NCBI GenBank assembly: GCA_903837355.1
Contig: CAILUI010000240.1
Coordinates: forward strand, 1-64,000
Length of the DNA stretch: 64,000 nt
Direction of reading: 5' to 3'
Origin: an uncultured Victivallales bacterium
GTDB taxonomy: Bacteria; Verrucomicrobiota; Lentisphaeria; Oligosphaerales; JAFGRS01
Below are positions 127 to 12,544 of this stretch, piece after piece. The translations under genes were made by a program, and so were the position numbers. The stretch's first letter is position 1, and each line of letters starts with the position of its first letter. The notes below the pieces were generated by a model, which saw nothing but the letters and a program-made list of their open reading frames with translations, did not search any database and had not been told where the DNA came from.

Positions 127-966
127 TCACTGAGGTCTGGTGTACCGTCCGCCGGCCAGTTCGACCAAGCGCACGGTGTCGTCGAAGCGGACGTGTCCCT
201 TGAGTCGCAGCAAACGCTCGTTCAGTCCCTGCACTGCGGCCGCAAAGGCCTCGCGGTCCGCCGTGCCGGGCGGGCTCAGCGACACCGAACTGAGTGCCGC
301 CGGAGCCGCAGCCAGGGGCGGTTCGGGGGTTCGCTCGTGTTTCAGGCCGTCGATGAACGACCAGGGTATGCAGCCATGCTGCACCGTGATCTGGGCCGCC
401 CTCCGGTTCATGTCGCCCAGCAGGCGCCCGAGCCGCGCCAGTTCGTCGGGGGTAACCAGATCGGCCTTGTTGAGCACCAGTCCATCGGCAGCGCAGACCT
501 GGCTGCCGGCCGCCCGCAGGAAGGGCGCGACCGCGGTGAAGTGGGCGGCGTCCACCAGGCAGAGGTTGGCGCGAACCGCGAACCGCCCCGCCAGCATCGG
601 CACGTCGAGGACGCCCTCCAGATCGCGCGTCTCGCTGACCCCTGTCGCCTCAACCAGCAGCAGGCCCACAGCAGCCATGGCGGCGACTTCGGACAGAGCC
701 TCCAGCAGCGCCACCTGAGTGCAGGCGCAGAACAGGCTGCCACGGTTGATCTGCAGCGCTCTGACTCCGGTAGACGCCAGCCTCTGTGCGTCGACCCCGA
801 GGGCCCCGAACTCGTTGATCAGCAGGACCGGCTGCCGGCCGCGGACCTCCGGCAGACCGAGCAGATGGTTGAGGACCGTGGTCTTGCCGGCGCCGAGATA
901 GCCGGTCAGAAGAAGCACAGGGATACGCTCTGACGTGGCAGATGACATCATTCCCGGGCACCTCAT
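127..966 (-). CDS. CobW/G3E-family GTPase (metallochaperone-like)
   Basis: Cytoplasmic P-loop GTPase of the CobW/HypB/UreG (G3E) class. It has a Walker A motif GYLGAGKTT (residues 22-30), VEATG (105-109) in the Walker B region and the guanine-specificity motif NKAD (166-169). The metal-site region reads FCAC (79-82), that is CxC rather than the usual CxCC. Family members deliver Zn, Co or Ni to client proteins or act in cobalamin metabolism. The start is set at 966 because ATG overlaps the stop of the upstream gene as ATGA; a longer frame to 981 would overlap more. At 279 residues it is shorter than many CobW proteins, and the usual C-terminal CobW domain is reduced. Coupling to a URO-D/thioredoxin fusion suggests that protein, or a corrinoid enzyme, is the metal client (inference). 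Confidence 0.85.
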   Translation of the reverse strand: MRCPGMMSSATSERIPVLLLTGYLGAGKTTVLNHLLGLPEVRGRQPVLLINEFGALGVDAQRLASTGVRALQINRGSLFCACTQVALLEALSEVAAMAAVGLLLVEATGVSETRDLEGVLDVPMLAGRFAVRANLCLVDAAHFTAVAPFLRAAGSQVCAADGLVLNKADLVTPDELARLGRLLGDMNRRAAQITVQHGCIPWSFIDGLKHERTPEPPLAAAPAALSSVSLSPPGTADREAFAAAVQGLNERLLRLKGHVRFDDTVRLVELAGGRYTRPQ

Positions 967-2588
967 AGGTCCCTGATCCACTCCCTGATCACGGCCGAGT
1001 CGGGTGTGTCACGCACGGACTTGAGCTGGTAGCGCGCCACCACCACGGCCGGCAACTGGCTCGTGATGACCCCGTACGAGGCGATGATCTGCGGATCGGT
1101 GACCTCGCGGATTGAGACCTCGGCACCGAGTTCGGTGACGGCGCGTTCGAGCCGTCGGCGGATTTCCGCCGCCTGCTCGGTGCCGGTGCAAAGCAGGTAG
1201 ACGGTCCCCTTCCGGCGGGCGATCCGGACCTTCAGCTTCTCGTTGATCCGACGCTGGATGGCCGCGATCAGCTCGTCCCGGGGCGGGATGCGCGAGACGA
1301 AGGTGATCTGTCCGTCGATACAGATCGTGGGCACATTGTGGACCATCAGCGACGTCATGAAGACGAGCGACTCGCGGTACTTGATTTTGTGTTCCCGCCA
1401 GACCACGATGCCCTCGAACTCGGGGGCCACCTTGCGCACCGCGTCGACCATGTATTGGCATGGCGCACAGGCCTCCGAATCGAGGGTGACGATGTCCACG
1501 ACCACGCGGTCTGCCTGGCCGTATTCCTCCAGGTCCAGTCGCTCCCGAGCGGCCTGCTCCGGCACCATGGCCTTGACGACCTGGCGCTTGTACGCATCCG
1601 CCACCACCTCGTGGATGGCCTCCAGGTTGGCTGGCGGCACCGCGTAGGGCAGGTCGCATCCGGGTGCGAGGACGAAGCCCGTGTCGCCGCCGACGTCGAG
1701 GCAGGCGATAGCGTTCTTCTGGGCCTCGAGCGGCTGCCCCAGCAGCAGTACCGTGGTCAACTGCAGGTTACCACCGAAGCTGACCCCTCGAGGCAGGCAC
1801 ACGTCCCGCACAAACTGCAGGGGGATGTTCTCATCCACGGAGATGTTGTCGGGGCCGCAGTCGCACATGGCATCCATGTTCTGCTGTGCGTGGCCGCAGA
1901 CGAAGAAAGAGCTGAGCGTTCCACGGCGGCGGATGGCATCGAAGACCGGGCGGGCGGCCGGCGTGACCCACTCCTTGAACTGCTCGGGCCCGATCTGGCT
2001 GGTCATGGGATCGACGATCGCCACCACGTCGCAGCCGGCGTCCACGTAGTACCCGGCCGTCGCCTGACAGACGCGGCTGGTGAACTCCATCAGCTCCCGC
2101 ACCGCCGCCGGCGCGTCGAACATCTGCATGAAAATGTCCGTGCCTAGCAGGTGCAGTGCCAGGGTGAACGGCCCGGTTATCAGGCCGTAGAGGGCGATGT
2201 CGGGGTGAGCCTCGCGCAACTGCCTGGTGGCCGACAGAGCCATGCCGATCCGGCCGGCCGTCGGCGGCGGCACGGACAGATCCCCCACCCGCACCCCGGC
2301 GCTGAGCGGGTGCGAGGTCACCGCGGGAGGGTTCTCCCGGGCCCACGTCAGGCTGCAGCCGAGAGCTTCCGCCTCGATCTGCAGGTCGAAGCACACGGGT
2401 ACCCCGTCGGCATGGTACCGGCGGATCGCTTCGCCAACCCCCCTCACCGTCAGCTCAGCGGACCGCAACACCTCCTCGGCCGATGCCCCAATCAGGGCCC
2501 CGGCATGGCAACCGACAAAGGGCACCCACGGAACCCGGTCGACACTCTCTCGCCGCAAGGCCCTCATCACGCGTTCCCGGCCCGTCAT
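963..2588 (-). CDS. URO-D/MtaA-superfamily protein fused to two thioredoxin-like domains
   Basis: Residues 1-340 are a URO-D/MtaA-type TIM barrel that starts with the familiar MTGRERVMRALRRE. A thioredoxin-like domain follows (about 360-445) with the redox motif CAPC at 374-377. A second thioredoxin-fold segment (about 450-541) has lost the second cysteine (LLCTGTEQ). In zinc-dependent MtaA/CmuA methyltransferases the barrel carries HxC plus a distal Cys. Here the first site is FVCG (Cys231, His replaced by Phe) and the distal Cys is Cys311 in LAPGC, so zinc binding would be atypical. A good ribosome site (AAGGAG) lies 10 bases before the ATG at 2588. The gene is coupled to the downstream G3E GTPase. 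The likely role is methyl transfer from or to a corrinoid or thiol with built-in redox chemistry (inference). Confidence 0.8.
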   Translation of the reverse strand: MTGRERVMRALRRESVDRVPWVPFVGCHAGALIGASAEEVLRSAELTVRGVGEAIRRYHADGVPVCFDLQIEAEALGCSLTWARENPPAVTSHPLSAGVRVGDLSVPPPTAGRIGMALSATRQLREAHPDIALYGLITGPFTLALHLLGTDIFMQMFDAPAAVRELMEFTSRVCQATAGYYVDAGCDVVAIVDPMTSQIGPEQFKEWVTPAARPVFDAIRRRGTLSSFFVCGHAQQNMDAMCDCGPDNISVDENIPLQFVRDVCLPRGVSFGGNLQLTTVLLLGQPLEAQKNAIACLDVGGDTGFVLAPGCDLPYAVPPANLEAIHEVVADAYKRQVVKAMVPEQAARERLDLEEYGQADRVVVDIVTLDSEACAPCQYMVDAVRKVAPEFEGIVVWREHKIKYRESLVFMTSLMVHNVPTICIDGQITFVSRIPPRDELIAAIQRRINEKLKVRIARRKGTVYLLCTGTEQAAEIRRRLERAVTELGAEVSIREVTDPQIIASYGVITSQLPAVVVARYQLKSVRDTPDSAVIREWIRDL

Positions 2589-2909
2589 CGCCTCACGCTC
2601 CTTCCATCGCCTTACCGCCGCGGCAGCCCCCAGCCTTGCGCCTCGGTGGCGTGGGATCGCCGACGCGGTCTGTCTGCTATTCGTTCGGAGCCCCTGCCTG
2701 ATCCGCGCCTGCCCCGCAGCGAGTCGCGTACTATAGCCATCCGATCCGTCTTCGGCGGGCCACTATCGGCCGCGGCTGCGGACCCTGCCGCGGAACGCCA
2801 GCGCGCCGTCAGCGCAAGGGCGTCCAAAACAGTGCGGTCCAGAGGCTTGGCGGAGGCCATCGCCAGCAATCCGAACGGGGCTCCCGGCAGCGGTAGGCTG
2901 GCCGCCGGC
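2589..2909. other. intergenic region, 5' side of the URO-D/thioredoxin gene
   Basis: About 320 bases between two minus-strand genes. The ribosome site of the URO-D/thioredoxin gene sits at its left end. A TATAGT hexamer on the minus strand (2730-2735) could be a -10 element, but I see no convincing -35 partner. No gene or terminator is obvious. Confidence 0.35.
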
Positions 2910-5900
2910 TCACCTGCCTGCCGGCCGCAGGAGCACGACTCGCAGGTCATGGCTCTCCACGGCGAGGTCCTGCTCCCGGATCTCCTGCCCGGTCTCGGCA
3001 TCCACCAGCGTGCCGCGCTCAGAGCCCAGGGCTGCCCAGTCAACCCGGATGGGCACCGCCGCCCGGGTCGGAAGGAAGTTCGATACGTACAGCAGAGCCC
3101 CTCTGCCCGGCCGGCGGTAGTGACTGGCCTTGAGCCCCGGCGGCAGGGGCCAGAGCGCCCGGCCGGCGTCCTCCCAGTAGCCCGTGAAGGTGCAGTCCGA
3201 GGCGGCGATGCCGAAGGTCTCCTCGATGGCGCGGAAGGTGTTGCTGACCGCGGGGTTGTTGTTCTGGGCGCAGATCCAGAGGTCGAAGAGCTTGAGCAGC
3301 GCCATGCAGGTCCGGGTGGCCTTGGTCCCCGCCAGCAGTGCCGGATCGTGGATCTTGGTCAGCCAGCCGGGATTGCCGCCCCAGGCGCCGGCGGCGAAGG
3401 CTTCGACGCTGACGAGGGGGTAGTAGTCCATGTAGTCATACTTTGCTTCACTCAGGTCGTGTTCGCCGTCCATGCAGAGGCCGGCGAAGGAGAACGCACC
3501 GGGGTTCAGGGCAGAGGTCATATGCACGAGAACCGTCGGCTCGACACTGCGCTGCCGGGACGCCGCCACGGCGCAGCGCCGGATCAGGTCGCGGGTCTCG
3601 AAGGTACGGTACGCCCCCTGGACGCGGCCATCCTCGCGGCGGTAGGCCCCGTCGGCATGCTGGACGTTCGTCGAGGCGTAGGGGAACGAGTTGTCCAGGT
3701 AGAGCCCCGTCAGCCCAGTCTTCTCGATCCACTCGGCCACCCGCAGGACCGAGTAGTCGACGCGGCTCGGGGACATCGCGACGTGCAGGCCGGTGTAGTT
3801 GAGCGCGTCGCCGCCGCTGCCTTTCCAGGCCATGGCCTCCTGCGCCAGGGCGTAGTACTGCAGCGGCACATTCCCCCACTCGTAGGCCAGGTCGCGCACC
3901 ACGGGGTCGCCGACGGAGAGCGTCTCGCCCGCCATGTACAGGTATGCCGCCTCGCCGGTCGCCTTGACCGCGGTGTACTTCTCCCGCGCCAGGAAGAAGT
4001 CCCGGCATTCGATGCCCATGTTCTGGCGGACGAAGGGGTTGCCGAAGCCGAGGTCACCCACCTTGAACGCGATGTTGCCGCCCACGACCCGCGGTCGGGT
4101 CGGTGTCGCGATGAGTCCGAAGACGACGGTCCGCGGTGCGGACAGCGTCGTGGGTCCCGCGATGACGTGGAGGCGCACCACCGCGATGCCCTTCTCCCGG
4201 GTGATGGTGGTGCACGGCACGGTCTCGTCGTGGGTCCAGCCGCGGTCCGAGTTCGCATACCAGCACAGGCCATTGCGGCGGTTGCCAAAGAGCAGATAGG
4301 GGAGGAAGTTGCCCACCATGGCGTGCGAGGTGACCCCGAGGCTCGACCAGATCAGACCCTCGCCCGCCGGGAACCAGTACGAGGTCGGGTAGCGATTGCG
4401 GTAGGCACTCTTCCCGGTCCAGGTCTGGACCTTGGGGTCGGCCCAGTCGCCCTCGGGCTTCGCCATCATGTAGAGGGTCGGGGTCATGCTGTTGCCGCTG
4501 GTGTGGAAGTAGGTGAGGTCGCGGAGGGGCACCTCGAGCGAGAGCCGGGTCACGTCGAGGGCGCGTGATGGGGTAAGGGTCAGGCTATAGAGCAGCCCAC
4601 CGTCGTAGTCGAGTGTGCCGGTGACGGTGACCGCCAGGTCCGCTAGGCGCGTCTCGCCGCCGAAGCTCACCCGGTCCGGGGCAGTCTCCGCGAAGGTGAG
4701 CGTGCCAGGGATGTCGGCATGCACCCCCGTGGCGTCCTCGAGCACCAGGCGCATTGGCGCCGCCAGCACATCCTCGCCCTGGGAGACGATGCGCTCAGGC
4801 AGGCCCGAGCCGGCGAAGGCGTACTCGCGGCCCCAGCAGCCGACCCGGCTTCCCTCAACCTGCAGCGGCGTGAAGGGAGCGATGACGATGCGGTCCTTGC
4901 CGATCGAGTTCCCCAGCCAGGGCAGGTCCTTCTTCTCGACCGTGCCGGAGATGACCTCCAGGCAGGTGCCGTCCGCGTCGTGCACGGCCGCCCGGACGAT
5001 GTACTCGCCATTGACCTCGGGAGCGAAGGGGAAGGCGATGCAGCCCATGTCCTGGACCACAACCGGCGGCTCGGCGGCACGTGTGGCGAACGGTCGTGCC
5101 GTGCGGGGATCGCTGCCTTGCAGGATGGCGACGTCGGTCCGGCCGTAGGTCTTGCCGCCCAGCGCCGCCAGACGCGCCTGCATGCCGAACAGCCGCAGGG
5201 CGATCTTCTGCTGGACCGGGTAGTACTCCAGGTCGTGCGTCTTCGCGGTGCTGGTCGCTGAGGTCACGTCTGCCATGCCCTCTGTGCTGAAGTGCACCGG
5301 TTGCGAGAACCACAGACGCCCGTCGGCGCCACGGACTTCGCAGCGCAGTTCGCCGACCCGCAGGCGAGTCTCGTCCTCGGGCAACGTGAACTGGGCTTCA
5401 GCCCCGGCCGCGACCGGCACGTCTTTCTCGGCACGCTGTTCGGTCTGGCCCTGCCGGGAGAGCAGCACGCGATAGGTCGCCTCCTGCCCGGTGACATTGC
5501 GCACCGCGGCGGCGAGGCCGATGCTGCCCTCGCGCAGACGGCCCTCGTGGCCCCAGAGCACGGCGGGCGCGTCGGCAGCGATGGTGCAGGCCAGCAGGTT
5601 GGCGCAGTCCTTGTACCCGAGGCCGGTGATCGAGGCGAACTGCGAGGGGTAGTAGAGGTTCCGGCAGAGGTTGATGCCGAAGGGCTTGCCGGCCTCCAGC
5701 CCCACGGCGGCGAGGGGGATGCCGATCTCCAGGCCAGGACGCTGATCGGGCCCCGCCACCGACCGCACCTGCAGGCCATCACAGGTCCACTCGGCCTGAT
5801 CGAGCCCGAGCTGCCTGCGGTTGGCCAGGTCGAAGACCGTGCCGCCGAGGTTGAGCACCAGTTGGTATAGACTGCTGGGCTTCTCCGTCTGGCCGAATTC

Positions 5901-6806
5901 GGGGTTGATGATGACCTCCAGGGACTCGTCCTCCCAGACGTTGCCATCGCGCTGGGTGATGGTGTTCTTGTGCCCGTTGGGGCGGACGTCGAACAGGGCC
6001 AGCAGGTAGAGCGTGGTGGCGTCGGCCGCCACCCGGATCTCGGTCTGCCGCGGGATGGCGCTATGGGTGAGGATGTTCATGAAGCCGGTGCGGCTGCCGC
6101 TTGCGCCAGCCCACTCGTTCGCGTCGAGCCGGCCATCGATGAGCGGCGGTCTGGCCAGGAGAGGGATGGTCCACGTGCCCTGGTACGCGGCGGGCGCCGA
6201 GGTGCCGGGGCCGGTGTCAACCAGCGCCACCCGCAGGGTGTCGAGCAGCACGCCGCGGCCGTGCACTTCGATTTTCGCGAAACCGGCGCCGTGGCATGGC
6301 CACATCGTGACCAGGGAGCTGTATTCGCGCCATTCCCCGTCCGTGCGGACCTCGGCGACATCGGCGAGGAAGTCGAGCGGGGCGCAGGCCGCACTGGTGT
6401 ATTCGAAGAGCCGGACCGTAACGGACGCATTCTCGCCCTTGGCCCAGAAGGCGATCTCCAGCGTCTTGTCGCGCACGTCCGCCAGCGGCTGCGCCATAAG
6501 GATACGGCCATCGAGGAAGAGGCTGGCCTCGCCAAAGCGCTCACGGTCTGGCGGCGGGGTGACCACGCGACGCAGGTAGCCCGGCTCGTCCGGGCGCTCC
6601 TGCGGCAGCCAATGCTGGGGGCAGGAGAGCGCCGGGCCGAGTTCCCACCCGGCCAGAGGCGCGGCTAGGGGTTCCCATTCCTCGAAGCCGGCATTGGGGA
6701 TGGGCACGGGCGCGGCGGCCCCGGCGCCAAAGGCCCCCACCCCCAGGCCGAAGGCCGCCAGCCCGAGCCAGGAAAGGCCACACCAGCCACGGCTGTATTT
6801 GCGCAT
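2910..6806 (-). CDS. large secreted glycoside-hydrolase-like protein with CBM9-type domain
   Basis: A protein of about 1,298 residues with an N-terminal signal peptide (MRKYSRGW..., hydrophobic run, then GAGAAAPVP). The ATG at 6806 is chosen because it begins this signal peptide; the frame stays open upstream to 6887. Next comes a jelly-roll segment beginning NAGFEEWE, then a CBM9/DOMON-like domain (LIDGRLDANEWAGA ... TLYLLALFD ... WEDESLEVIINPE). Long beta-rich regions follow. The C-terminal quarter is a TIM-barrel-like hydrolase segment with GLYLDNSFPYAS and LCMDGEHDLSE, resembling DUF6067-type relatives of GH123. The substrate is unknown. The protein is probably exported to bind and cut polysaccharide. 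The domain assignment is by motif recognition only. Confidence 0.7.
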   Translation of the reverse strand: MRKYSRGWCGLSWLGLAAFGLGVGAFGAGAAAPVPIPNAGFEEWEPLAAPLAGWELGPALSCPQHWLPQERPDEPGYLRRVVTPPPDRERFGEASLFLDGRILMAQPLADVRDKTLEIAFWAKGENASVTVRLFEYTSAACAPLDFLADVAEVRTDGEWREYSSLVTMWPCHGAGFAKIEVHGRGVLLDTLRVALVDTGPGTSAPAAYQGTWTIPLLARPPLIDGRLDANEWAGASGSRTGFMNILTHSAIPRQTEIRVAADATTLYLLALFDVRPNGHKNTITQRDGNVWEDESLEVIINPEFGQTEKPSSLYQLVLNLGGTVFDLANRRQLGLDQAEWTCDGLQVRSVAGPDQRPGLEIGIPLAAVGLEAGKPFGINLCRNLYYPSQFASITGLGYKDCANLLACTIAADAPAVLWGHEGRLREGSIGLAAAVRNVTGQEATYRVLLSRQGQTEQRAEKDVPVAAGAEAQFTLPEDETRLRVGELRCEVRGADGRLWFSQPVHFSTEGMADVTSATSTAKTHDLEYYPVQQKIALRLFGMQARLAALGGKTYGRTDVAILQGSDPRTARPFATRAAEPPVVVQDMGCIAFPFAPEVNGEYIVRAAVHDADGTCLEVISGTVEKKDLPWLGNSIGKDRIVIAPFTPLQVEGSRVGCWGREYAFAGSGLPERIVSQGEDVLAAPMRLVLEDATGVHADIPGTLTFAETAPDRVSFGGETRLADLAVTVTGTLDYDGGLLYSLTLTPSRALDVTRLSLEVPLRDLTYFHTSGNSMTPTLYMMAKPEGDWADPKVQTWTGKSAYRNRYPTSYWFPAGEGLIWSSLGVTSHAMVGNFLPYLLFGNRRNGLCWYANSDRGWTHDETVPCTTITREKGIAVVRLHVIAGPTTLSAPRTVVFGLIATPTRPRVVGGNIAFKVGDLGFGNPFVRQNMGIECRDFFLAREKYTAVKATGEAAYLYMAGETLSVGDPVVRDLAYEWGNVPLQYYALAQEAMAWKGSGGDALNYTGLHVAMSPSRVDYSVLRVAEWIEKTGLTGLYLDNSFPYASTNVQHADGAYRREDGRVQGAYRTFETRDLIRRCAVAASRQRSVEPTVLVHMTSALNPGAFSFAGLCMDGEHDLSEAKYDYMDYYPLVSVEAFAAGAWGGNPGWLTKIHDPALLAGTKATRTCMALLKLFDLWICAQNNNPAVSNTFRAIEETFGIAASDCTFTGYWEDAGRALWPLPPGLKASHYRRPGRGALLYVSNFLPTRAAVPIRVDWAALGSERGTLVDAETGQEIREQDLAVESHDLRVVLLRPAGR

Positions 6807-7175
6807 TCCGAGGTCCCCGTTTCGCCGCCTGCGTCGGGCTGACGCCCGCTCCGGCCGCGCCGCACAGCCCGGCTCCGTGGCACTCATTGGTTCAACCCGG
6901 CGCGACTCTTAGTGGCCTTGCCGAGGCGACCCGCCGGAGCCCTTCGGCGGCACGGTCGTCAGTGCGGTTTGCTCCGGCACAACGCCAGCTGTACGGTAGC
7001 CGCGGGCAGGCGGTCTCCTGGTCTCGTGCGCGATGCCTTAGAACCATAGGTCGTCTGCTCAACTTTTCGCCCTCTCGGCGACGTCGGCGAACGTCGTCCG
7101 GCGACCGGCGCTCAGCTTGCGCGATTCACGGAGTTCCGGCACTTTGGGGATCCGGAATGAGGAGGAGCACACGCG
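6807..7175. promoter_or_regulatory. divergent promoter region
   Basis: About 370 bases between divergently transcribed secreted-protein genes, so promoters for both must lie here. I could not fix clear -35/-10 boxes. A strong ribosome site (AGGAGGAG) precedes the plus-strand gene. Several short GC-rich palindromes are present, for example ccgccg ... cggcgg near 6930-6950. Confidence 0.4.
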
Positions 7176-9155
7176 ATGGTGAAGTTACCGGCTCTCGTAT
7201 TGGCTGTGGTATGGGTTGCGGGCACAGCCCGAGGTCTCGCCGCAGACGCGGTGACGACGGTCTTGGCTTGCCATATTGCCAATGTGGTTAAGGAGTCCGT
7301 CCCGGCGGAAGGCAATGCTGCCATCATGGAAGCGAAGAAGGAACACCCGGACCTTGGGGGCACGGTGTACCTCTACCTGCACAACTCGTCACCAGGTCCG
7401 GTTACGGTCCGGGGGGTCTCATGGGACGGCGCTGATGTCAGCACCCGTCTGGGCGGACCCGACTACGGCGTAATGTGGTGGAGGTGCGCTCCGACAAGCA
7501 TTGCCTCGGGCACGGAAGCTGAGGTCACCATAAACCTGCGGGAATCTCTCTGTAAGGACACTCCTTTCACGGTGGATCTTGGAGAGGCCGGAAAGGTGCA
7601 TTGCCAGGTTGAGTTGAGTCACATCGGCCCAACGCTGGCAACCGTAGCATTCACACCGGATCTAGGCGCGGCGTACCTCTATGTCGACCTACCCGGCGGG
7701 GACCTCCCTCACGACATATACATCAATGGCAGCCCTGCAGGGAGGTCAGTGGCCTTGCTGGGAAAAGGCCGTGCAGCGGGTTTGGCAGTACTCAAGGTCA
7801 CGCCCCGCGGAGGGTTCAAGCAGGGCGAGCGCTATCTGTTCAGGATTGGGGCTGGGCAGCATGGGTGTGCTGGGTCCATCCGGGCATTCGGCGATCTTGC
7901 CAGGTTTGGGACCTATGGTTTCGCCAATCCTGACGAGTTCTCTGCCGCCGGATTGGATGCCTATGCTTCATTTACAGCGTTGGATGCAGAGGCACTGTCC
8001 CAACATGGGCGGGTGGGTATGAAAGCGGCTATGATCATCGGCTTCAAAACACCGGAACCGTCGGTCGTTGGCAACCCCAGTATCTACGCCTATGTGGCGA
8101 TGGACGAACCCGATTGCTATGACTACTCCAAGGATGAAACAAGGCCGATGCACAAGCGTCTTGGCACGTTCGCCCAACCCTTAGTGGAGTGGGCAGGCAA
8201 CTGCGAGACTGCTGATCGTCTGGTGCCCACATCAACCACCCTTGATCTGACCTTCGCGCCCCAGAACTACTTCACCTATGCCAAGGTTGCCGATATTGCC
8301 AATCCCGATTGCTACACCGTTACGTCGGGATGGCCGCTCACGGCGTTCCGGGACAAGGTTTCGATGATCAAACGGGCCAGCGCTCCTCAGCCGTTCACCA
8401 TGACGTATCAGGGGTACTGGGAAGAGTATGCCACCCCGGTGAGTACGTGGATGAGTCCTGCGATGATCGCTGAAAAGGGATCCGAAAACATGGTTGACCG
8501 AACCCGAATACGGGGGTTCGGGAGAGCGCCTGCGGCTGAGGAAGTTCGCATACCCATGCTCTATGGCGTTGGCGGCGGGGGACGTGGACTCTTCTGCTAT
8601 CTTGCCGCCACCGAGGCCATGGCCACCCAAATGGACCACAGCGTGATGGCAATGCCTGAACTCTGGCAGGAAGTAACACGGACCACACGGGAACTGCGGA
8701 CCGTAGCTCCGCTTATTCAGGTGTCTCATCCGCTGATATGGAGTAAGGCCAGCCAGAGTTCACTTTGGACCACGACGCTGATCTGCGGCGAGCAGGCGGC
8801 ATTGGTTGTCGCTGTCAATGAAGCGTGCAAATCGGAGAAGGACGCATTCACACCCTCCCCAGTGCTCGACACCACGTTCAGTTTTCCAGACCTGCCATGG
8901 TTACGAGCCGAGAGAGTATACGGGGTGGGAGATGGCAAGCTGGAACGGATCAAGTCCAGGAAACACGCCGGCACACTCACGTGGACCGTAGGCGCCATAG
9001 ACGATGGAAATATCTACTTGGTCTGCTCGGACAAGAGGCTGGCCGATAGACTGCTCAAGGAGTATGCGTCGAAGTCAACACATATTACCGCTGCGGGTCT
9101 CAAGGTTCCTGAAGAAGGGCACCTGAAAGGCCGCAGGAAGACCCCACAGCAGTGA
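7176..9155 (+). CDS. secreted TIM-barrel hydrolase-like protein, compositionally distinct
   Basis: 659 residues starting with a signal peptide (MVKLPALVLAVVWVAGTARG, then LAADA). The first 220 residues are beta-rich. The middle looks like a TIM barrel with YVAMDEPDCYD, where Asp-Glu fits a glycosidase active site, and ends in a beta-sandwich-like region. The family is not recognised. An AGGAGGAG ribosome site lies about 10 bases before the ATG. Third codon positions hold visibly more A and T than those of its neighbours (16 of 27 GC-ending in a stretch I counted near 7590-7670), so it may be a later arrival or an old, poorly expressed gene. It is monocistronic and convergent with the URO-D gene at 9390. 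Confidence 0.7.
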   Translation: MVKLPALVLAVVWVAGTARGLAADAVTTVLACHIANVVKESVPAEGNAAIMEAKKEHPDLGGTVYLYLHNSSPGPVTVRGVSWDGADVSTRLGGPDYGVMWWRCAPTSIASGTEAEVTINLRESLCKDTPFTVDLGEAGKVHCQVELSHIGPTLATVAFTPDLGAAYLYVDLPGGDLPHDIYINGSPAGRSVALLGKGRAAGLAVLKVTPRGGFKQGERYLFRIGAGQHGCAGSIRAFGDLARFGTYGFANPDEFSAAGLDAYASFTALDAEALSQHGRVGMKAAMIIGFKTPEPSVVGNPSIYAYVAMDEPDCYDYSKDETRPMHKRLGTFAQPLVEWAGNCETADRLVPTSTTLDLTFAPQNYFTYAKVADIANPDCYTVTSGWPLTAFRDKVSMIKRASAPQPFTMTYQGYWEEYATPVSTWMSPAMIAEKGSENMVDRTRIRGFGRAPAAEEVRIPMLYGVGGGGRGLFCYLAATEAMATQMDHSVMAMPELWQEVTRTTRELRTVAPLIQVSHPLIWSKASQSSLWTTTLICGEQAALVVAVNEACKSEKDAFTPSPVLDTTFSFPDLPWLRAERVYGVGDGKLERIKSRKHAGTLTWTVGAIDDGNIYLVCSDKRLADRLLKEYASKSTHITAAGLKVPEEGHLKGRRKTPQQ

Positions 9156-9330
9156 AACAACACATATCGTCATCCTCCTGTCTTCGGCACTGACACCGAG
9201 CATGTCCGCCGGTGGTGAAGCCGCGGTGAATCTGGCGTGTCGGTGCAGTCTGCATCGCGCGTTCCCTCTGTGGGCCGGTGGCCCCCCGTTGGCGCCACGC
9301 CACCGCTGGTTTGGGCGGGCTCCGCTCGGC
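9156..9330. other. intergenic between convergent genes
   Basis: A stretch between the end of the secreted-protein gene and the URO-D remnant. No clear hairpin terminator with a T tract was found. Confidence 0.3.
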
Positions 9331-9393
9331 GCAGAAGTCACGGTCCGGCTCCTCAATGGGCGGCGTCTTCAGCATCCGTTCTTTGCCGGTCAT
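9331..9393 (-). pseudogene. remnant of a URO-D gene 5' end
   Basis: An ATG at 9393 overlaps the stop of the upstream URO-D gene as ATGA, and the first residues read MTGKERMLKTPPIEEPDRDF. This matches the canonical URO-D-superfamily start (compare MTGRERVMRALRRESVDRV in the gene at 963-2588). After about 20 residues the reading frame loses all resemblance. It looks like the first bases of a second, formerly coupled URO-D gene whose body has been deleted. Confidence 0.55.
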
Positions 9394-10445
9394 GCCGCGC
9401 TTCCCGCTCTGACGTGCCGCCGCTCATACTCGGCCACCGCGCCATAGAGGGCATGCACGTTGGCCAGGGGCGTGTCGCGGTCAAAGGACCAGGCGCAGAG
9501 GGTAACCGTTGGCGCGCCGGCCGTGTCTTCCAGGATCTGCAGGATGGCTTCCCGTACCGCGTCAGCGTTCCCGTTGCGCATCAGTACCGCATCCACCAGC
9601 GGTGCCATCTCGATGCCTGGCAGCAGCCTCGCCGCGGCGGCCAGGTCCGTGCCCGGCCCGAGTTGTGTCTGCACGACGTGCGGGATCTCCGCGAAATGGG
9701 GAAGCAGGTGGGTCGATGAACCGCAGGAATGGTACGTCACCCGCGCGAACTGCGAGGCCAGGTCGCGGTTGGTCGGCAACACCACCTGGCGGTACGTCTC
9801 CGGTGAGAGCAGCGCCGCGGCGCAGTCCCCCAGCAGGAGGCCCGTGAACGTCGCTCCCGTGGCCGCGGCGATGCGCGCGTAGAGCGCCGCGTAGATCTCC
9901 CAGACCTTGGCGAAGAGGCGCTGGGACGCCTCTGGCTCCAGCAGCATATCCACGAACAGGTCCTGGCCGCAGAGCTGGTGTGCGCTGGTGTAGGGAGTGT
10001 GGGTATACATCGAGCCGGAACGCGAGAACAGGATGTCGGCCTGATCACCGTACAGCCGCTGCAGGGTGCGGAACTGCGCCAGAATCCTGTCCATGACCGG
10101 ATGGTGCGCCGCCTCCCGTGCATCCAGCCCCGCCACCTCGTCGGACGTCAGACCGGCCCAGGGCGCCGCCAGGCTCTCCACCGTGGCATCCTCGGGGAAC
10201 TGCCACGGCGCACCCTGCGTATGCATGAGCAGGTCCACCGGCTGCATGAAGAAACTCGGCGAGGGCTCCGGCTCCGGCGAACCGACGCCGTGGCGACCGA
10301 AGGCCTCGTAGAGAAAGCGCCCTTCGGCGCGCTCGATGTCCGCCCGGCAGGCGGGGTCGAAGTAGTACGCTTCGCCGTAGCGCAGGCCGAGATGCCGGTG
10401 GTAGAACGCGGGCATGAAGTTGAGGCTGACGGTTATGCGACCCAT
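9390..10445 (-). CDS. URO-D-superfamily protein with intact HxC zinc motif
   Basis: 351 residues forming a URO-D/MtaA-type barrel. The zinc-type motif is YHSCG (His239, Cys241), and a later Cys in TLCAWSFDRDTPLANV fits the third thiolate ligand. This makes it more like cobalamin methyltransferases of the MtaA/CmuA group than true haem-pathway HemE, which lacks these ligands. It has no signal peptide, so it is cytoplasmic. A GAGGAG ribosome site lies 9 bases before the ATG at 10445. It probably belongs to a transcript from the GH123-like gene upstream, or has its own promoter in the 245-base gap. The substrate cannot be deduced. Confidence 0.8.
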   Translation of the reverse strand: MGRITVSLNFMPAFYHRHLGLRYGEAYYFDPACRADIERAEGRFLYEAFGRHGVGSPEPEPSPSFFMQPVDLLMHTQGAPWQFPEDATVESLAAPWAGLTSDEVAGLDAREAAHHPVMDRILAQFRTLQRLYGDQADILFSRSGSMYTHTPYTSAHQLCGQDLFVDMLLEPEASQRLFAKVWEIYAALYARIAAATGATFTGLLLGDCAAALLSPETYRQVVLPTNRDLASQFARVTYHSCGSSTHLLPHFAEIPHVVQTQLGPGTDLAAAARLLPGIEMAPLVDAVLMRNGNADAVREAILQILEDTAGAPTVTLCAWSFDRDTPLANVHALYGAVAEYERRHVRAGSAA

Positions 10446-10690: not shown

Positions 10691-12451
10691 TCAGCGCCCG
10701 AGTCCGGCCAGCGCCCGCAACACCGCCAGATGCGCCGCATCGTAAGCCGCGGCGTCCTTCTCGAAGTCGTCCACGGCGCGCACCAGCGGGTAGGTGGCCA
10801 GGGCCGCCAGGGCCGCCTCCAGGCGCGCGGGCTCGCAGAGCGCCAGCCGCGCCGGATCGCTGCGGATCGCGACGATCTGGCGCTCAAGCAGGGTCAGCAG
10901 GTCGTAGTCCTCGAAGGCGTCACGGGTAATCTCCAGCCGCATCGAGGAGTAGGGCAGGTCCTTGCCCTCGGGGTCGGGGTAGAAGAGGAAGCCATCGCCA
11001 TTGCAGTGCCCGTTCGGGTAGTTGGTGTCGTTGATGATGGCCGGATCGTGCAGCGGGTCGAAGCGGCGCCGTTCGGTCCCGCTGCCCGTATGCCAGTAGG
11101 AGCCGTTCCAATACAGGTACCCCTGGCAGCCCTGCTGGAACAGCAGCCAACCCAGGGCGCGGTGGCTGGTGCCATACCAGTCGATCCGCCAACTGTCCGG
11201 TGTCTTGATCCACCGGGTACCCATGCAGGTGTAGGTCCAGAACTGTTCGCCGGCGGTCACGCGGCGCAGCATGCCCCCGATGTAACCCGGGCGCGCCAGT
11301 TCATGGATGTGAGGAATCCAGACGTTTCCCGTTCCCAGCATCGTGCCATGGGGTGCCGTCATCAGCACCGGCAGGTGGGGCGCATGCTGGCGGATGAATG
11401 CGCAGAAGCGCGCGATGGCACCCACCCGGTCCGGGGCGGGCTCGTCAAACGCATAGATGTAGAAGCGCTCGCCCCAGCCTCTGGCGACCAGGTGCGCGTC
11501 CAACAGCGCCAGCTTGCGGGCGGCCTCGTCCTGGTTGGCGGCGTCGTCTGGAATGCCGAGCGTCGCCTTGAACACGCTGTCGTGCGGCACCAGGAAGGTG
11601 GTGCGTCCACGGGCCAGCCAGCCGGTCACGTCCGCGTCGAACTCGTCCCAGGTCGCGGTCCAGAGCCCGTCGTCGCCGCGGTGGAAGACACCGTCCCACT
11701 TGCCGCCCAGCCACATCTGTGAGAACCGGCTGCGCAGCAGTTCCTCGTTCATGAAGCGGTAGGCCTCGGGCCAGCGCTCGCCGTAGAAGGGGATGCCATC
11801 GTAGAGCAGGATGACCGTCTTCAGGAAGCTCAGGGCTGGCAGGTCGACCGGGTAGACGGTCACCGTCAATGGCAGCGCGGCGGGCTCGCGCCCACTCGGA
11901 GCCACGGTAACGGCCCCTGTGTACTCCCCAGGCACGGCGTCTGGCGGCACGCGCACGGTCAGCCAAAGCGACTGTGACTTGCCGACCTCCACGTCAAAGG
12001 GTCGCAGCGGTCTGAGGGGATCCGGGTAGTCGCCGGCGACGCCGAAGCTGACGGCGGTGGGGTGGGCCACAGGGACGGTGCCGAGCAGGCGCAGTTCGGC
12101 AGCCAGCGCCGCCCCGTCAGGTCCGCGGAGTTGGGCCTGGGCGTTGACCTGCCGTAACCCCTCGCGCAGCGGCGTCACCAGCACCTGCCCACTCTCGGCT
12201 TCACCACGGGCGGCATGGAGCGCCAGGGACAGGGCGGGACTCCCCGGCGCCAACTGCTCAGGCCTGGCCTTGACCAGCGCCGGCAGAGCCTGCACCAGGT
12301 AGCCGTCCGTGCCGGCCGCCAGCAGCGCCTCCCGTGCCGCCGGCGTGTTGGCGACCAAAGCCTCCTCGGAGAGCGCCCGCGCCGGCAGGCAGGACCCCAT
12401 GAGCAGGACCGCCACATATAGACTCGCAAGGCGTTGTGAGTTCAAGTTCAT
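10691..12451 (-). CDS. secreted DUF4091/GH123-catalytic-domain protein
   Basis: 586 residues. The start at 12451 gives a signal peptide (MNLNSQRLASLYVAVLLMGS, then CLPARA). The frame is open to 12508, but that adds only charged residues. Residues 30-200 form beta-sandwich domains. From 205 a TIM barrel typical of DUF4091 (GH123-like) follows, with LYDGIPFYG and the catalytic-type pair in YAFDEP (Asp336-Glu337). GH123 enzymes are N-acetylgalactosaminidases using substrate-assisted catalysis, but DUF4091 is broad, so the exact sugar is uncertain. The gene is preceded by an unusual structured leader (12479-12544). Confidence 0.8.
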   Translation of the reverse strand: MNLNSQRLASLYVAVLLMGSCLPARALSEEALVANTPAAREALLAAGTDGYLVQALPALVKARPEQLAPGSPALSLALHAARGEAESGQVLVTPLREGLRQVNAQAQLRGPDGAALAAELRLLGTVPVAHPTAVSFGVAGDYPDPLRPLRPFDVEVGKSQSLWLTVRVPPDAVPGEYTGAVTVAPSGREPAALPLTVTVYPVDLPALSFLKTVILLYDGIPFYGERWPEAYRFMNEELLRSRFSQMWLGGKWDGVFHRGDDGLWTATWDEFDADVTGWLARGRTTFLVPHDSVFKATLGIPDDAANQDEAARKLALLDAHLVARGWGERFYIYAFDEPAPDRVGAIARFCAFIRQHAPHLPVLMTAPHGTMLGTGNVWIPHIHELARPGYIGGMLRRVTAGEQFWTYTCMGTRWIKTPDSWRIDWYGTSHRALGWLLFQQGCQGYLYWNGSYWHTGSGTERRRFDPLHDPAIINDTNYPNGHCNGDGFLFYPDPEGKDLPYSSMRLEITRDAFEDYDLLTLLERQIVAIRSDPARLALCEPARLEAALAALATYPLVRAVDDFEKDAAAYDAAHLAVLRALAGLGR

Positions 12452-12478
12452 GGGCCGATCTCGCCTTTCCCCCTCCAG

Positions 12479-12544
12479 CCGGGCCTCCGGCCCGGTGGAA
12501 CGCGGCATCTCCGTATGCCGCGGCCGGGATACGGAGATCCCGGC
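12479..12544 (-). promoter_or_regulatory. structured leader: three tandem hairpins with complementary loops
   Basis: Three adjacent perfect stems lie 28-93 bases upstream of the start at 12451. They are ccgggcc/ggcccgg (12479-12495), cgcggcat/atgccgcg (12501-12522, loop ctccgt) and gccgggat/atcccggc (12523-12544, loop acggag). The second and third loops are exact reverse complements, so the two hairpins could kiss. Alternatively atctccgtat and atacggagat could pair over 10 bp and dissolve both. This is the layout of a switch or of a mobile palindrome. No known riboswitch class is recognised. Confidence 0.55.

Follow-up and report, generated by a model that had tools for sequence, protein, structure and literature searches.

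A 541-residue fusion protein, encoded in a 64,000-nucleotide stretch of DNA from an uncultured Victivallales bacterium (contig CAILUI010000240.1, positions 1 to 64,000; this whole stretch is called the window hereafter), joins a barrel of the URO-D superfamily to a thioredoxin and to a second, degenerate thioredoxin fold, and its gene is followed by that of a G3E GTPase. From the sequences compared here we favour, at about even confidence, the view that the fusion belongs to the MtaA branch of the superfamily and acts as a corrinoid-linked methyltransferase, which would use a Phe-Cys-(Cys/Sec) site (Sec, selenocysteine) and work together with thioredoxin. The observations that carry this view are the fold, the invariant residues, the linkage to thioredoxin, the Cys/Sec exchange at position 311, the linkage to the GTPase, and the association with corrinoid and one-carbon genes. 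The features lie on the reverse strand (-) as follows (Trx1 and Trx2 denote the first and second thioredoxin folds).

963..2588 (-), fusion of an MtaA-like URO-D barrel, a CAPC thioredoxin and a degenerate thioredoxin fold, 541 residues
1584..2588 (-), URO-D/MtaA-like barrel, residues 1-335 (PF01208; best fold match MtaA, 4AY7)
2505..2510 (-), C27-H28 of the motif WVPFVGCH (clade alignment)
1896..1904 (-), F229-V230-C231, in place of the H-x-C zinc ligands of MtaA (alignment to MtaA, clade table)
1656..1658 (-), codon of Cys311 (LAPGC), counterpart of the last Cys ligand of MtaA
1233..1511 (-), Trx1, residues 360-452 (PF13192)
1458..1469 (-), CAPC redox motif, residues 374-377
966..1223 (-), Trx2, residues 456-541, without CxxC in the window (TIGR00412, 1ilo)
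963..966 (-), ATGA stop/start overlap from the fusion gene to the GTPase gene
127..966 (-), G3E/COG0523 GTPase, 279 residues from its ATG (PF02492, CobW_C)
721..741 (-), GSLFCAC, the altered metal motif of the GTPase, replacing GCxCC

The barrel and Trx1 were recognised by Pfam (PF01208, residues 3-330, 201.9 bits against a cutoff of 23.9; Thioredoxin_3, PF13192, residues 371-443, 40.3 bits against 24.8). The remainder, from about residue 456 to 541, matched TIGR00412/MTH895, with a profile match to 1ilo (E=4.9e-6), and was predicted by the structure model as the alternating strands and helices of an MTH895-type fold; Trx1 combines the thioredoxin fold with CxxC, and both catalytic cysteines are gone from Trx2 in the window. 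The stop codon of the fusion gene (TGA, 965..963) overlaps the ATG of the GTPase gene (966..964). An earlier note, made from the letters alone, had described a URO-D/MtaA barrel with Cys231 and Cys311, a CAPC thioredoxin and a second thioredoxin fold in one chain, with an ATGA overlap to a CobW-type GTPase; the Pfam and profile matches bear out the chain, and the coordinates and the PF02492 and CobW_C matches bear out the overlap. The AlphaFold2 model of the fusion, built with 59 relatives, has a mean predicted local distance difference test score (pLDDT) of 89.2, and its best match in the PDB is MtaA of Methanosarcina mazei (4AY7; Foldseek E=3.7e-23, 25% identity), with a template modelling score (TM-score) of 0.91 normalised to MtaA and a root-mean-square deviation of 1.9.

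By Pfam gathering score and barrel fold the protein belongs to the URO-D superfamily, and it falls short of the curated cutoffs both for HemE (TIGR01464, 69.1 against 302.95 bits) and for MtaA/CmuA (TIGR01463, 161.3 against 235.4 bits). MtaA-type enzymes are regarded as zinc enzymes with a His-Cys-Cys site. In the alignment to 4AY7, F229-V230-C231 takes the place of H-I-C, and C311 that of the last Cys, so the His-Cys-Cys zinc site is absent and reads Phe-Cys-Cys in the window and Phe-Cys-(Cys/Sec) across the clade of its relatives. Because neither the TIGR01463 score nor the His ligand is there, we do not file the protein as MtaA and say instead that it would work like MtaA.

A scan of GTDB genomes found this architecture in 80 public loci, most of them full-length at 42-69% identity, and such conservation excludes a chance arrangement. 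According to the record titles they belong to at least 13 named phyla, among them Planctomycetota, Bacillota, Bacteroidota, Lentisphaerota, Chlamydiota and Spirochaetota, and further Calditrichota, Chlorobiota, Fibrobacterota, Raymondiibacteriota, Sumerlaeota, KSB1 and SAR324 (the sources are mostly metagenome-assembled genomes, and individual taxon labels may be wrong). Within the window's own class the fusion is carried by 15 of 198 genomes and is therefore an accessory, patchy gene; in a sample of the clostridial phylum, relatives of varying depth occurred in 49 of 300 genomes at E<=1e-40, with about 18 strong matches.

Every URO-D barrel in the fetched loci was aligned (139 barrels), and the barrels divide cleanly into a type with G-x-H ... 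F-x-C ... G-(C/U), called Phe-type below, and a His-first type. In the maximum-likelihood tree of 109 barrels, a long branch with 100/100 support sets off the Phe-type as a single group. The first ligand position is Phe in all tabulated members of the clade (108 collected) and His in all tabulated paralogues; the replacement of His by Phe at the normal HxC site, pointed out in the earlier note for this one protein, is thus invariant throughout the clade. H28 is likewise invariant in the clade. As a replacement zinc ligand peculiar to the Phe-type it was weakened as a candidate by several His-type paralogues that also have it, and C27 was rejected as a ligand, being Val in many clade members. 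There is usually one fusion copy per genome, in genomes with many other URO-D paralogues. The genome of the window gave 92 first-look candidates for such paralogues, and a second, distant one lies in the window itself (9390..10445, reverse strand, 48.5 bits), where HSCGSS lies close to the position of the metal site.

The two types differ in their linkage to thioredoxin: in the same searches, Trx1 was fused or encoded in the next open reading frame in 108 of 108 Phe-type genes versus 0 of 29 His-type genes (the search model included Trx1, so linked copies were favoured). The linked module of the earlier note, which would have failed if homologues lacked the thioredoxin part, passes on this point. 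CxxC is retained in 118 of the 120 Trx1-like domains of the loci searched. In most lineages Trx1 is part of the barrel protein, and some Clostridia (L118, L121, L124) encode it in an adjacent gene of its own; this alternation of fusion and splitting argues for a working partnership of barrel and Trx1. No thioredoxin was detected beside a second Phe-type copy in genome G497 (L145:4337-5317), nor beside a divergent copy without F-x-C in genome G446 (L146), both genomes also having a linked copy; with these unlinked extra copies as a caveat, the linkage is near-obligate. Trx2 is less conserved, with CxxC in 6 of 59 aligned proteins and the whole region missing in 10, and a small thioredoxin resembling it is a separate gene in other Clostridia. 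The idea of two working thioredoxins is not supported, as Trx2 is without CxxC in the window, and other lineages either lack it or encode it separately. The nearest models for both folds are the MTH895/ArsE-type (TIGR00412) and the HUIPC-motif (NF047660) thioredoxin-like (seleno)proteins, the latter having Sec members, as do the thioredoxin genes near barrels in L124, L125 and L149; the scores, however, are far under the curated cutoffs, and the folds in the window are fused to a barrel.

At the codon aligned with Cys311, six clostridial members of the clade (L114, L118, L121, L122, L124 and L125) have an in-frame TGA in the context APG[TGA]D(M/L)P, after which conserved residues continue in frame. 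This position is the only site with an in-frame TGA among the 139 barrels, and the tree requires three separate changes. A tRNA-Sec was found in all six TGA genomes (72-75 bits), the UCA anticodon being confirmed by ARAGORN in the four of six that were fetched, and Cys stands at 311 in the six carriers that have no high-scoring tRNA-Sec, among them the genome of the window. An aligned UGA, a conserved downstream frame and a tRNA-Sec thus occur together in the six clostridial relatives and not in the window. Hairpins predicted 3' of the TGA are candidate selenocysteine insertion sequence (SECIS) elements (z-score below -3 in only one of six). Judged from these genes, Sec can replace Cys at 311 in the clade, and from this exchange, a standard sign, we infer that the thiol at this position is catalytic or a metal ligand.

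In three Sec-type clusters the neighbouring thioredoxin genes likewise have a TGA, at the first Cys of CxxC or close to it. The thioredoxin genes L124:1178-1405 and L125:2581-2808, which lie upstream of the Sec-type barrel, have it at the first Cys (FVQ[TGA]TPC) and match the HUIPC selenoprotein model weakly. In cluster L149 (genome G487, 348-9592) a Sec-type barrel is found with a G3E GTPase, two corrinoid proteins and several thioredoxin-like genes, of which two carry an in-frame TGA at the CxxC site or close to it. A selenocysteine read-through joining Trx1 and Trx2 in L064 was ruled out, Trx2 being in a different frame.

The GTPase belongs to the G3E/COG0523 family by its cobW (PF02492, 106.2 bits) and CobW_C (24.8 bits) matches, both above cutoff, and might alternatively start at an upstream GTG at 981. 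The usual metal motif of this family is GCxCC, in place of which GSLFCAC is found in the window and GSxFCxC in about 60 relatives; most partner GTPases thus have an altered thiol motif, as does the Phe-type barrel. Where at least 900 bases downstream were available, the GTPase gene followed directly in 71 of 99 Phe-type loci and in none of 25 His-type loci, and the conservation of this neighbour, on which the earlier note had made its linked module depend, is therefore borne out. Among the 198 genomes of the class it is present in 14 of 15 carriers and in 12 of 183 others (p about 1e-13), and one of the GTPase-positive others (G135) is itself a carrier, truncated at the end of a contig. A general link between such GTPases and methyltransferases was already known, as COG0523 subfamily 13 is co-located with mtaA, mtaB, mtaC and ramM (Haas et al., PMC2770081); here such GTPases accompany the Phe-type, thioredoxin-linked clade and mostly have GSxFCxC, not GCxCC, and this subfamily pairing is an addition to that work. 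In L007 and L011, genes for an Rrf2-like regulator, a cupin and a hybrid-cluster (prismane) protein lie downstream of the GTPase. In L069, L074, L075 and L076, where no GTPase is nearby, the Phe-type gene stands between sugar kinase or pabA/pabB-like genes and genes for GlpA/GlpB-like oxidoreductases dependent on flavin adenine dinucleotide.

Corrinoid and one-carbon genes recur around the fusion, and it is this neighbourhood that places it in corrinoid one-carbon transfer. In Bacteroidota and KSB1 the operons also contain His-type URO-Ds, a homocysteine S-methyltransferase, a B12-binding corrinoid protein and a Met_synt_B12 activation domain. A RACo-type activase occurs in L066, MtaB and CobT occur in L070, and in L051 the fusion and GTPase genes stand between those for formate-tetrahydrofolate ligase and MTHFR, with ETF following. 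A stand-alone corrinoid protein is encoded in 12 of 15 carriers versus about 61 of 183 other genomes of the class (p=5e-4; the 61 was counted from listed rows). In a type 1 mlp gene cluster, Mlp2 and Mlp3, a corrinoid protein and Ram/RACE are encoded together; of this kind of gene set the window itself has only the fusion and the GTPase and is thus no such cluster, and the likely partner corrinoid protein of its genome is on another contig (G000:C215). Of the "self-contained methyl-transfer module" proposed in the earlier note, methyl transfer is largely supported and agrees with the corrinoid gene neighbours, but self-containment is not supported, the fusion having no corrinoid domain and the corrinoid protein lying elsewhere. 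Beside a corrinoid protein gene in L174 (genome G204, 4451-9996, reverse strand) lie genes for a URO-D in which H-S-D replaces H-x-C, for an FGGY kinase and for a sugar isomerase-like protein, a set that looks like O-methyl-sugar demethylation. The window also encodes large proteins with matches to GH123-like N-terminal and catalytic domains (2910..6887 and 10691..12508, reverse strand), and this region looks like a polysaccharide-degradation neighbourhood.

As to what is transferred and which way, on what metal and substrate and with what role for thioredoxin, we infer the following course. A separate small corrinoid protein would dock on the barrel, and a methyl group would move between its cobalt and a soft sulfur/selenium centre at C231 and C/U311, this centre being either the residue itself or a thiol or selenol bound on a metal there. 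The CAPC thioredoxin might keep the Cys/Cys or Cys/Sec pair reduced, might present (deliver or release) the thiol partner, or might drive a reductive reaction. The co-translated G3E GTPase, where present, would load a metal into the altered site, and the methyl group would enter or leave the one-carbon pool (tetrahydrofolate or methionine). Zinc is the default guess for the metal; no specific metal is supported or deducible from sequence. Several observations weigh against this course. The loss of His may mean that no metal is bound, in which case the chaperone reading would be wrong; many Planctomycetota loci have no corrinoid gene nearby, 3 of the 15 carriers lack a stand-alone corrinoid protein, and no operon points to a named substrate; finally, 28 of the 99 copies have no GTPase beside them, among these five of the six Sec copies in the form fetched.

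Since His-Cys-Cys is described as the hallmark of URO-D enzymes acting on sulfur and selenium (PMC10418091) and a zinc-free member, the chloromethane methyltransferase CdmB, exists (PMC13222342), the missing His is compatible either with a metal site that has another ligand or with a metal-free redox pair. Two readings build on the latter, and we consider both rather unlikely, to the same degree. One keeps the methyltransferase and makes it a zinc-free corrinoid class, in which methyl would pass via the Cys/Cys or Cys/Sec redox pair of the barrel, each cycle would be reset by a dedicated thioredoxin, and the dedicated GTPase would serve another metal centre of the pathway. The other is a redox enzyme on a methyltransferase scaffold, in which C231 and C/U311 would form a zinc-free dithiol or selenothiol pair that reduces or reductively splits a substrate (e.g., a methylated sulfur/selenium compound, a disulfide or another C-X bond), with thioredoxin re-reducing it at each turnover and the GTPase serving some other protein. 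This fits the clade-wide loss of the metal His with retention of both Cys, one exchangeable with Sec, as well as the near-obligate thioredoxin linkage and the extra thioredoxins of several clostridial clusters, some with TGA at or near CxxC; yet it would need neither the GTPase nor the corrinoid genes, both of which recur in the operons, and the closest fold is that of a methyltransferase.

Less probable again is a general second-step methyltransferase that would pass methyl to tetrahydrofolate from corrinoid proteins loaded by several substrate-specific URO-D enzymes, with thioredoxin only protecting the site or driving a conformational switch. The usual single copy amid many URO-D paralogues would suit it, as would the operon of L051 (in the order formate-tetrahydrofolate ligase, fusion, GTPase, MTHFR, ETF), but a single operon is thin evidence, a Cys/Sec site is not needed for transfer to folate, and the enzymes known to use folate as acceptor belong to the MeTr/AcsE family and not to URO-D (PMC13222342). 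MtvA was dropped as a URO-D folate enzyme for comparison, because the same paper groups MtvA, MtqA and AcsE with CdmA and puts MtvA on the AcsE/MetH side. We regard as improbable the handling of organometals or metalloids, in which the soft Cys/Sec site would methylate or demethylate arsenic, mercury or selenium species with the help of ArsE-like thioredoxins and the metal GTPase: the thioredoxins weakly resemble MTH895/ArsE models, the GTPase weakly resembles a CobW-related selenoprotein, and ClMlp2 of the same superfamily acts on selenide (PMC10418091), but those model scores are far under curated cutoffs, and no arsenic, mercury or selenium genes were recognised by eye among the listed adjacent genes. 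That the protein is an ordinary HemE, or an artefact of assembly joining unrelated genes, might be suggested by the Pfam name URO-D and the mostly metagenome-assembled sources and is refuted by its residues, by the HemE score (69 bits against 303) and by the same architecture in scores of independent assemblies, including the 8.6-Mb contig of the planctomycete strain CA13.

Compared with MtaA (methylcobalamin:coenzyme M methyltransferase; 4AY7, TIGR01463), the Phe-type proteins have the same barrel, both Cys ligands and links to corrinoid proteins, but Phe replaces the His ligand, a thioredoxin is fused or adjacent, Cys311 can be Sec, and the clade occurs in bacteria without sign of coenzyme M use. 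The Mlp1-3 proteins of the type 1 mlp clusters (Kountz & Balskus, PMC10418091) are MtaA-like proteins outside methanogens, found with corrinoid proteins and activases and proposed for sulfur/selenium chemistry; they form three lineages with an almost invariable His-Cys-Cys, whereas Phe-type proteins are not described there, thioredoxin appears in the reference list only, and G3E or GTPase appears nowhere in the text. CdmB demonstrates that zinc is dispensable for a corrinoid methyltransferase of the URO-D superfamily (PMC13222342), the Phe-type clade differing from it in keeping two invariant Cys (or Cys and Sec). In the searched literature, outside which most subscription journals lie, no description of Phe-type or thioredoxin-linked MtaA relatives or of a URO-D selenoprotein was found. 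UroD, MtaA, CmuA, PF01208 and TIGR01463 are all absent from the entries of a 2026 review of prokaryotic selenoproteins, and the Sec form therefore looks unlisted.

Across at least 13 phyla, then, a branch of the MtaA-type enzymes has lost the His while retaining both Cys, has several times admitted Sec in place of one of the two, and has become tied to thioredoxin, and a G3E GTPase subfamily of unassigned cargo is now paired with a single candidate client. This raises the testable question of whether corrinoid methyl transfer can take place on a thiol/selenol redox site. The zinc-free reading with a Cys/Cys or Cys/Sec pair would, if true, couple corrinoid methyl transfer to the thiol redox state, and the presence of Sec at the key cysteine in some Clostridia suggests a thiol/selenol-based way of moving methyl groups.
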